A DNA stretch of 64,000 bases from Rufibacter hautae (GTDB taxonomy: Bacteria; Bacteroidota; Bacteroidia; Cytophagales; Hymenobacteraceae). The translations under genes and the position numbers were made by a program. Numbering within the stretch: position 1 is the first letter of the stretch; every line of letters begins with the position of its first letter. Shown here piece after piece: positions 42,167 to 54,026 of this stretch. The DNA is taken from the NCBI RefSeq assembly GCF_008271695.1, contig NZ_VKKY01000001.1, positions 248,001 to 312,000 on the forward strand, given 5' to 3'. The notes under the pieces were generated by a model, which saw only the letters and a program-made list of their open reading frames with translations, searched no databases and was not told the DNA's origin.

Positions 42167-42344
42167 CAAAGCGTTAGAAAGTAGTTGTGCTACAATTATA
42201 ATTGTTGGTGATAACACTAGCGACGGCGTGACGTCATGGAAACATGTAAGCGCAGAAGTAAGATTAAAACAGCTAGATTACTCCACCCCGTTCGTCAGGA
42301 CGATGAAGGATTGCAGCGGCTCTATGGCAGGGCTGTTACATGCA

Positions 42345-42389
42345 GCTCGTCGGAGGTTGGGCGCATGCGTAACCCAACCTCCGACGAGC
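42345..42389. repeat. Strong hairpin, 17-base perfect arms
   Basis: GCTCGTCGGAGGTTGGG pairs fully with CCCAACCTCCGACGAGC around an 11-base loop. It lies about 45 bases before multi-stem element A and may be its 5' part. There is no T run, so it is not a standard terminator. Confidence 0.8.
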
Positions 42390-42434
42390 GCAGGCAGTGG
42401 CTCCTCTAGCAGCAGTGGCGTAGGTTCACCATGC

Positions 42435-42690
42435 AACAGAGGACGCTTGCGGGGTGCCACAAAGAATGAAGAAAAGACTGTCTGAGCGTCAGCGAGTTTC
42501 TTTTCTTCTTGATTCTTTTGGTTACTTTTCTCATCAAGGAGAAAAGTGACAAACGCGGGCAGACCGCGGCTGCAGCCATAAAAAGTAGGACAGATATAGG
42601 AAGTAAGTACCTAGAAAGTAGTTTTTGAGGCTGACGCCTCACTGCAGTTGCAAACTGCAAACCATGGTAGGTCCAAGTCACAGACTTGAA
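42435..42690 (+). repeat. Multi-stem repeat element, copy A (structured RNA or DNA)
   Basis: A row of stems: GAAGAAAAGACT paired with AGTTTCTTTTCTTC (42468-42508) around a conserved loop, GTTACTTTTCTC with GAGAAAAGTGAC (42521-42550), CGCGG with CCGCG (42554-42568), TGAGGCTGACGCCTCA (42626), TGCAGTTGCAAACTGCA (42643) and AAGTCACAGACTT (42675). Copy B at 53722 keeps the loops but has different stem letters for the first and third. The strand is arbitrary. It encodes no credible protein. Confidence 0.75.
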
Positions 42691-42743
42691 CCAGGAAGTG
42701 AGGAGAAGAGAATAGACAACCCCTGTTTCAAGCAATCATAAAA

Positions 42744-42785
42744 AGTGTTTCAAGGCTCCTTTAAAGAAAACAGCCCTGAAACACT
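42744..42785. repeat. Dispersed palindromic element, hairpin after barrel lipoprotein
   Basis: AGTGTTTCAAGGCTCC pairs with the downstream AACAGCCCTGAAACACT. It lies 19 bases past the stop at 42804 (minus) and may terminate that gene. Confidence 0.75.
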
Positions 42786-53376: not shown

Positions 53377-53721
53377 GGTCTTGTCTTTTATGATTTGCAA
53401 AAGGTATTCTGTCCTCGCTTCTTCTGTTTCATTCTTAGCAGAAAGCTTTAAAGCAGCCATACGCTTGAGAATGTCTATAGATGAAGTAGACAAATTAATA
53501 CACCAATTACTGGAAATCCAACTAAGAGAAAAGAAAATTATTAAGTTGATAAGGAATGGCAGCTTCCAAAAGGAATTTTTGCAGCCTTTAACAGAAATAA
53601 ATCTGACGAATAAAATATTATCCTGCGGCAGACCGGGGCGAAGGCCTACAGTGAGGCCGAGGCCCGGCCTGACGCACGGAGGAACTATCCGAATGGCAGT
53701 GGCCTGCGTCAACTATGGAAC

Positions 53722-54026
53722 AGAGGACAGTGGCGGGGTGGTACCTTGACTGAAGCCTCACTGTCCGAGCGTCAGCGAGTTTGAGGCTTCTTGATTCTTT
53801 TGGTTACTTTTCTCATCAAGGAGAAAAGTGACAAACCTCCAAACGGAGGATCAAGCGCTGGATTTTAGGCAAGTAAGTAGTTAGAGGTAACTGCCCAGAA
53901 GGTGGTTTTGAGGCTGACGCCTCACTGCAGTTGCAAACTGCAGACCATGGTAGGTCCAAGTCACAGACTTGAACCAGTGGAAGAGGGGAAGACCATGGTA
54001 GATCCAAGTTGAAAGCTTGAATCAGG
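53722..54026 (+). repeat. Multi-stem repeat element, copy B
   Basis: GAAGCCTCACT pairs with AGTTTGAGGCTTC (53752-53790) around the same loop as copy A. GTTACTTTTCTC with GAGAAAAGTGAC follows (53803-53832), then CCTCC with GGAGG (53836-53849), TGAGGCTGACGCCTCA (53909), CTGCAGTTGCAAACTGCAG (53925) and AAGTCACAGACTT (53958). A further diverged unit of the last stem follows at 53992-54026. The strand is arbitrary. Confidence 0.78.

Follow-up and report, generated by a model that had tools for sequence, protein, structure and literature searches.

The 64,000-nucleotide stretch of the Rufibacter hautae genome analysed here (hereafter the window) carries two copies, A and B, of a multi-stem element, and raises the question of why both sides of a stem should change together with its pairing kept. 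The first-pass annotation, which compared these two copies, had proposed selection on a fold, as in a non-coding RNA, or an element that moves and reforms its arms. Its central observation holds: stem 1 is built from GAAGAAAAGACT and AGTTTCTTTTCTTC in copy A and from GAAGCCTCACT and AGTTTGAGGCTTC in copy B (Table 1), both arms differing and the pairing being retained, its loop is identical in the two copies, which also have almost the same stem 2 and 3' stems. An unpaired dinucleotide in stem 1 is also common to both copies, as had been described, although its letters are TT and not AA. Such two-sided change is real, frequent, and spread beyond one species, and copies A and B are members of a set of 29 near full-length copies in the host genome. 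These are hairpin-forming intergenic DNA repeats, in which loops are constant and both sides of the stems vary together, and which probably represent a variant of the REP repeats linked to a domesticated transposase.

Comparison of 286 bp of copy A with the 5.84-Mb host genome detected at least 42 places, comprising the 29 near full-length copies and at least 13 partial ones that cover the 3' part only; the search scored 40 of 91 first-look candidates, so that the number of partial places is a lower bound. The pattern GAGCGTCAGCGAGTTT, searched with up to two mismatches, occurs at 30 places (28 exact, one with one mismatch, and one with two), of which the exact and one-mismatch ones are the same 29 copies, whereas the reversed pattern used as control occurs at 3 and 4 places. 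Many copies of the palindromic units are located between genes in the host, according to heuristic gene calls. A coding reading was rejected, as a 260-nt stretch is free of stops in at most 2 of the 29 copies in any frame, and Pfam gave no match at E 0.01 for three overlapping ORFs. No tRNA or tmRNA was found. A separate hairpin repeat, GAGACAAGGCATGCCTTGTCTCTAC (variant GAGACAAGGCAGTGCCT), lies upstream of many copies (L025, L028, L031, L087, and others).

The element as initially delimited left out a conserved 5' part: it starts 100-150 bp further 5', at about position 42289 in copy A and 53622 in copy B. The whole element is a composite of 350-400 bp with about six hairpins, arranged as a 5' module, a core (stem 1, the spacer TTGATTCTTTTG, and stem 2), a variable linker, and a 3' tail of three hairpins. 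Alignment of the 29 host copies revealed two alternative 5' modules, an A-form that ends in a hairpin such as CTCGTCGGAGGTTGGG-CGCATGCGTAA-CCCAACCTCCGACGAG and a B-form that consists of a hairpin such as TGCGGCAGGCCGGGG...CGGCCTGCCGCA. According to their stem 1, 10 of the host copies are A-type, 18 are B-type, and one (L018) is a hybrid. The modules are shuffled, with a B-form 5' module joined to an A-type stem 1 in L015, L025, and L034 and the reverse combination, an A-form 5' module with a B-type stem 1, in L017; the 3' tail module is also present elsewhere in the host genome without the core.

Table 1. Features of copies A and B of the element, with their positions in the window.
Copy	Feature	Position	Strand	Remark
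A	Conserved 5' leader CCGTTCGTCAGGACGATGAAGGATTGCAGCGGCTC	42289..42323	+	In A-form copies; diverged in L018
A	5' hairpin, A-form, long perfect arms, loop CGCATGCGTAA	42345..42389	+	Folding z -8.6; arms differ among copies and among species
A	Core stem 1, A-type arms, AGCG-T-CAGCG loop	42468..42508	+	
A	Conserved 12-nt spacer TTGATTCTTTTG	42509..42520	+	
A	Core stem 2 (GTTACTTTTCTC/GAGAAAAGTGAC)	42521..42550	+	
A	Stem 3 of the first-pass annotation	42554..42569	+	Pairing not maintained in the family
A	3' tail, three hairpins (GAGGC.., CTGCAGTTGCAAACTGCA, CCAAGTCACAGACTTG)	42627..42692	+	
B	5' hairpin, B-form (TGCGGCAGACCGGG...CCCGGCCTGACGCA)	53622..53680	+	Folding z -4.3
B	Core stem 1, B-type arms	53752..53790	+	
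B	Conserved spacer TTGATTCTTTTG	53791..53802	+	
B	Core stem 2	53803..53832	+	
B	Stem 3 of the first-pass annotation (CCTCC/GGAGG)	53836..53849	+	
B	3' tail module	53910..53973	+	Tail of B folded against shuffles
B	Second, degenerate tail unit (CCATGGTAGATCCAAGTTGAAAGCTTGAATCAGG)	53991..54026	+	Direct reading of the sequence

The joint variation of the two arms extends well beyond copies A and B. Stem 1 was examined in 152 core hits, of which 83 are unique over the analysed stretch, with its arms placed from the left arm alone; the cross-species sets here and below consist of fetched copies, a subset of all existing ones. Stem 1 exhibits 36 distinct arm pairs, 33 of which have 8 or 9 of their 9 positions paired, and its mean of 8.31 pairs compares with 6.06 when the right arms are re-dealt (maximum 6.83 in 2000 shuffles). 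Its wobbles are few, 7 G-T against 5 A-C in 576 cells, and the hybrid L018, which combines an A-type left arm with a B-type right arm, pairs at 5 of 9 positions only. We also built a tree-based null imitating R-scape, in which the substitutions inferred on a FastTree tree of 64 unique rows were re-dealt over columns branch by branch. In the core, three column pairs were significant (E < 0.05), all of them in stem 1, and the top four pairs were likewise those of stem 1. The covariation check suggested at the outset thus yielded significant pairs across many copies, under a null constructed here.

The 5' hairpin of copy A, situated upstream of the element as first delimited, shows even stronger covariation than stem 1, with long arms that vary around a fixed loop. 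Counted with an anchored expression (32 unique A-form hairpins, 17 positions) that fixes most of the two to three loop-adjacent pairs, also in the shuffles, 492 of the 544 positions are Watson-Crick, 11 are G-T, 6 are A-C, and 35 are other combinations; 19 of the 32 unique hairpins pair at 16 or 17 positions, and the mean of 15.38 pairs compares with 9.30 after shuffling (maximum 11.44 of 2000). A broader expression for the 5' loop, which retrieves 56 unique hairpins in their best-pairing register with B-form look-alikes mixed in, was left unused for these counts. The tree-based null applied to the 5' hairpin gave four significant pairs, all inside the hairpin, and neither there nor in the core was any significant pair found outside the stems. 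Six copies from a single relative, G010, have six different arm pairs around one kind of loop, pairing in their best register at 16, 16, 16, 15, 14, and 10 of 16 positions. The tail hairpins likewise exist with different arm pairs (CTGC/GCAG, CTGA/TCAG, CGGC/GCCG, CGGA/TCCG, and others), of which the arm types alone are used here, since the search expressions were loose, took their register from the pairing itself, and caught other matches. The folds are also better than those of dinucleotide shuffles, with z values of -4.2 for core A, -3.6 for core B, and -3.2 for the tail of B, and with both 5' hairpins folding better than their shuffles (Table 1).

The remaining two stems behave differently. 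Stem 3, which the first-pass annotation regarded as a further compensated stem, was rejected as a conserved one: all 5 pairs form in only 6 of the 29 host copies and at most 3 pairs in 18 of the 29, and its folding is no better than chance in both copies (z about -1.3). The comparison of its arms between A and B involves bases that are not homologous, copy B diverging from the other host copies after stem 2; the arms CCTCC/GGAGG of copy B are absent from the other 28 host copies and common to some copies of G014. Stem 2 contains no significantly covarying pair in the 64 unique rows of the tree-based null and is broken in some copies, with 7 hybrids of broken pairing against 7 double changes in 133 unique cores, and 3 hybrids against 6 double changes in the 64-row set. 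A T-G wobble of stem 2, which on the other strand amounts to a mismatch, is kept in 56 of the 64 rows. All the stem-2 hybrids that we listed (L048, L141, L158, L170, L177, L223, and L225) combine the GGTTGA form on the left with the AGAAAAGTGAC form on the right, and the opposite hybrid was not seen. Between the most similar 5' hairpins, single differences are one-sided in 6 cases and two-sided in 4, and between the most similar stem-1 arm types in 23 and 6 cases, respectively. Together with the hybrid copies, these one-sided differences indicate that both arms are not always changed at once.

The element is also distributed beyond the host. Of 150 genomes sampled within the family, 29 contain the core pattern with free arms, with zero control hits, and these comprise 13 of 16 congeners, 15 genomes of one other genus, and one of a third. 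The relatives identified by name are Rufibacter latericius, Rufibacter sp. SYSU D00344, and Sabulibacter ruber. At the site orthologous to that of copy A, the core is also present in G014, G010, and G004, in the last of which (L128) the element lies opposite in orientation to the window copy, and it is lacking in 11 other congeners with both flanks, L132 not being judgeable. At the site of copy B, the core is found in G014, G010, and G003 and, degraded, in G011; 11 congeners are without it, four of them with just 130-192 bp between the flanks. Several core-less A and B sites in other congeners (L127, L142, L145, L147, and L152) hold a different structured repeat of about 200 bp, of the form GAGCGCCTCGC or GAGCGCCTAGC ... 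GGCGGGGCC(T/C)CGCGGCCGTGAGCGC. Such presence and absence at orthologous sites, including the inverted copy at site A in G004, together with the occurrence in 13 of 16 congeners, would be expected from a MITE-like non-autonomous element mobilised by a transposase unrelated to the REP-associated tyrosine transposases (RAYTs). However, no terminal inverted repeats or target duplications were noticed, in sequences inspected without a dedicated search, and at the unoccupied sites that exist the flanking intergenic DNA seemed too divergent for a duplication to be recognised. The ends of the element are modular, both flanks are common to the named locus of a relative in 13 of the 29 host copies (mostly at 75-89% identity), and the AGCG-loop layout points to RAYT repeats, so that we consider a MITE-like element highly improbable.

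The orthologous sites reveal changes of arms in resident copies. In the 5' hairpin at site A, the window has the arms CTCGTCGGAGGTTGGG/CCCAACCTCCGACGAG, and G010 (L123) has CTCCTCTGCACTGGGC/GCCCAGTGCAGAGGAG; both sets pair at 16 of 16 positions. Similarly, the A-type copy L025 and the B-type copy L087 of G014 lie in an unbroken alignment of 84% identity over 2.3 kb, and the stem-1 type also differs at the same site in L009/L086, L012/L064, L013/L080, and L024/L070; the tally of A-type against B-type copies at such sites is skewed, because the pattern behind L064-L088 accepts only a four-base gap after the loop, which is mostly that of B-type right arms. Orthologous sites with differing stem-1 types imply that arms have been replaced in resident copies. 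In addition, the signature CATCCAGG is present in 16 of the 17 rows of G010 and in none of the 76 other rows, and it is also found in G010 at the orthologous site A (L123). This species signature points to exchange between copies, that is, to concerted evolution. The suggestion that the element reforms its arms therefore fits these data better than an RNA does, with arms exchanged in place at orthologous sites.

If the element were a structured non-coding RNA, it would be transcribed, and selection on its multi-stem fold would have caused the compensatory changes. The significant covariation of stem 1 and the 5' hairpin, the low folding energy, and the long residence at orthologous sites are all compatible with this reading, as are the conservation of the loops, which are never inverted (0 of 162 core linkers and 0 beside 38 standard 5' loops), and the T-G pair of stem 2, tolerable on the plus strand only. 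The 26 copies of relatives also tend in this direction, with 8 between two co-oriented and 3 between two opposed genes, but the 29 host copies do not (8 co-oriented, 7 opposed, 8 convergent, 4 divergent, and 2 unresolved), and the combined 16 co-oriented against 10 opposed constitute no significant bias, all from heuristic gene calls. Moreover, wobbles barely exceed A-C mismatches in the covarying stems, presence varies among congeners at the same site, the modules shuffle and also occur apart, and Rfam gave no match at gathering score in the window, nor at E up to 1 over 42200-42760. We consider a non-coding RNA improbable. What stands of the claim of selection on a fold is that pairing is either constrained or upheld by some process, as many copies, the shuffles, and the tree-based null support; the RNA reading that accompanied it is not favoured.

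A process of that kind could be purely mutational. Gene conversion would move whole stems and template switching would rewrite one arm from the other, and a two-sided change would be a single event in otherwise neutral repeats. In agreement with this, arms change in blocks and both types are abundant in one genome, the hybrids break within the conserved loop or stem 2 (L018, L141, and L170), a signature pervades a whole species, the arms are nearly all Watson-Crick with few wobbles, and one change of a single pair, from C-G to G-C, separates copies of the same genome. There is also a published precedent in template switching that maintains hairpins (PMC8794818), where, as here, perfect pairing persists through two-sided changes for which one event is sufficient; that work concerns RNA hairpins, whereas the present ones are dispersed bacterial repeats with signs of exchange. 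Template switching can, however, invert spacers (PMC8604942), and none of the loops is inverted; among the most similar hairpins, single differences are more often one-sided than two-sided, and the strong conservation of loops and spacers is unexpected under plain neutrality. Mutational upkeep of neutral repeats thus appears unlikely to us.

The repeats that accompany RAYTs offer a closer comparison. The host genome encodes two Y1_Tnp genes (L101 and L102) of about 182 aa each, both of which are RAYTs (NCBIfam NF047646, 96 and 94 bits, cut-off 80). By their motifs, they mostly match the published table of subclass 2.6, each departing from one motif (SHVH for NHxH in L102, YLHQNP for YIHQNP in L101). 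The units at their flanks follow one layout, in which an AGCG-N-AGCG-loop hairpin is separated by about 9-14 nt of spacer from a second hairpin, as in CCCGCAAGTTTAGCGACAGCGTAACTTGTGGG + TATCATGGC + GGAAGTTTATAAACTTCC; the arms differ from one RAYT type to the next, around a loop of the same kind. The core in the window has the same layout of AGCG-loop hairpin, spacer, and second hairpin, a feature derived in this work. Hairpins with AGCG loops are present in 18 of 60 fetched Y1_Tnp neighbourhoods, 47 of which hold an ORF with both the HuH and the WQ motif, the one in L120 being probably due to chance. A further 264 kb of sequence from 26 other loci, 25 of which had been fetched for the core, contains a single such hairpin outside cores, itself a unit of this kind.

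At the sequence level, the tail resembles the RAYT-flanking stretches of L102 (score 34, with 500 shuffles reaching at most 28) and L106 (score 33, shuffles at most 30), where tail-like units flank the RAYTs, whereas its score against three other RAYT stretches was attained by 39, 7, and 117 of 500 shuffles. The RAYT gene of L106 (in G003) seems broken after about 96 codons, and its flanking repeats persist. Direct homology between the core and the RAYT repeats was judged unconvincing, the best case being reached by 17 of 500 shuffles with targets chosen by eye. None of the 60 fetched Y1_Tnp neighbourhoods has a core abutting the RAYT, and one holds a core, about 0.9 kb from the gene (L235). 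In this G001 locus, the hairpin GGCGCGGAAGTTACTTCCGTGCC lies on both sides of the RAYT-like gene (1080-1110 and 1690-1720), and similar sequences recur in the linkers of core elements (L066, L074, and L086, for example). G006, a congener with a genome of 4.1 Mb in one contig, is exceptional in that it contains 10 cores and has no Y1_Tnp match at E 0.001; its repeats may outlive their enzyme or may need none.

With medium confidence, we favour the view that the element belongs to a composite family of intergenic DNA repeats made of REP-type hairpin units such as those found with RAYTs of group 5 (TnpA-Y1 subclass 2.6). Its loops and spacers are conserved, and its arms vary with matching sides in stem 1 as well as in the 5' hairpin and tail. 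This reading is based on the two host RAYT genes with flanks of the same layout, on the 29 intergenic copies with no shared reading frame, on the frequency of AGCG-loop hairpins near Y1_Tnp genes and their rarity elsewhere, on the similarity of the tail to the L102 and L106 flanks, and on the covariation, in-place exchange of arms, and species signature. Against it count the single core-bearing neighbourhood among 60 and the cores of G006, the unconvincing similarity of the core, the departure of each host RAYT from one motif, the broken stem-2 hybrids, as common as double changes, the strand specificity of the T-G wobble, and the lack of any match of copy B in the plasmid and phage records searched. 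Mechanistically, the hairpins would act as folded single-stranded DNA that is recognised through loop and spacer, and a RAYT-like HUH enzyme would mobilise them now or have done so in the past. Gene conversion between dispersed copies and template switching across the hairpin could both supply new arms, and the pairing would be kept because the fold matters to the element. The data are explained without a regulatory RNA.

The annotation that recognised no named family needs qualification, as the repeats of RAYT group 5 / TnpA-Y1 subclass 2.6 are a related named kind; the limited set of literature searched contains neither the core string nor Rufibacter intergenic repeats nor a Hymenobacter REP. 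As portrayed by Quentin et al. (2018; PMC6006769), this subclass is mostly from Bacteroidetes, with proteins of about 179 aa, and its genes are flanked by atypical structures, copies of which exist elsewhere in the genome and whose units lack the usual GT[AG]G foot at the hairpin base. The host corresponds to this account in being a member of the Bacteroidetes and in having RAYT genes of about 180 aa with HuH, WQ, and Y..NP motifs near the published ones and with hairpins at their flanks; this fit is why we count the family as a variant of REP-type repeats. It deviates from the same account in the size of the window element (350-400 bp, about six hairpins), in a core not found directly flanking a RAYT and persisting in G006 without a detected one, and in the one divergent motif of each host RAYT (PMC6006769). 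The window element resembles the REPINs described by Bertels and Rainey (2011; PMC3116915) in being a miniature hairpin repeat of intergenic DNA linked to RAYTs, but it differs from that description in its constant loop and spacer with varying arms, in having no symmetric pair of identical ends that we could see, in its long variable 5' arms, and in its in-place exchange at orthologous sites. It shares alternative stem and loop sequences, dimers, and groups with the GTAG and CGTC palindromic repeats, which are described as units of 20-40 bp with a tagged foot (PMC3733652).

A bolder version of the REP-type reading, which we regard as speculative and on balance doubtful, is that of a self-rewriting palindrome: the loops would be recognised, the arms would be copied from side to side by a fold-back linked to a RAYT or to replication and exchanged between copies, and resident hairpins would in this way turn over their arms and stay paired. 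Two-sided changes are usually taken as proof of a functional RNA, and the same pattern occurs here in dispersed DNA repeats, which calls for caution in RNA discovery that relies on covariation alone. The family provides a natural test of covariation arising from template switching or gene conversion against covariation arising from selection. For group-5 RAYTs, whose repeats have so far been characterised, in the published account of this group, merely as atypical (PMC6006769), it suggests a recognisable repeat grammar in which an AGCG-N-AGCG loop is followed by a spacer and then by a second hairpin.
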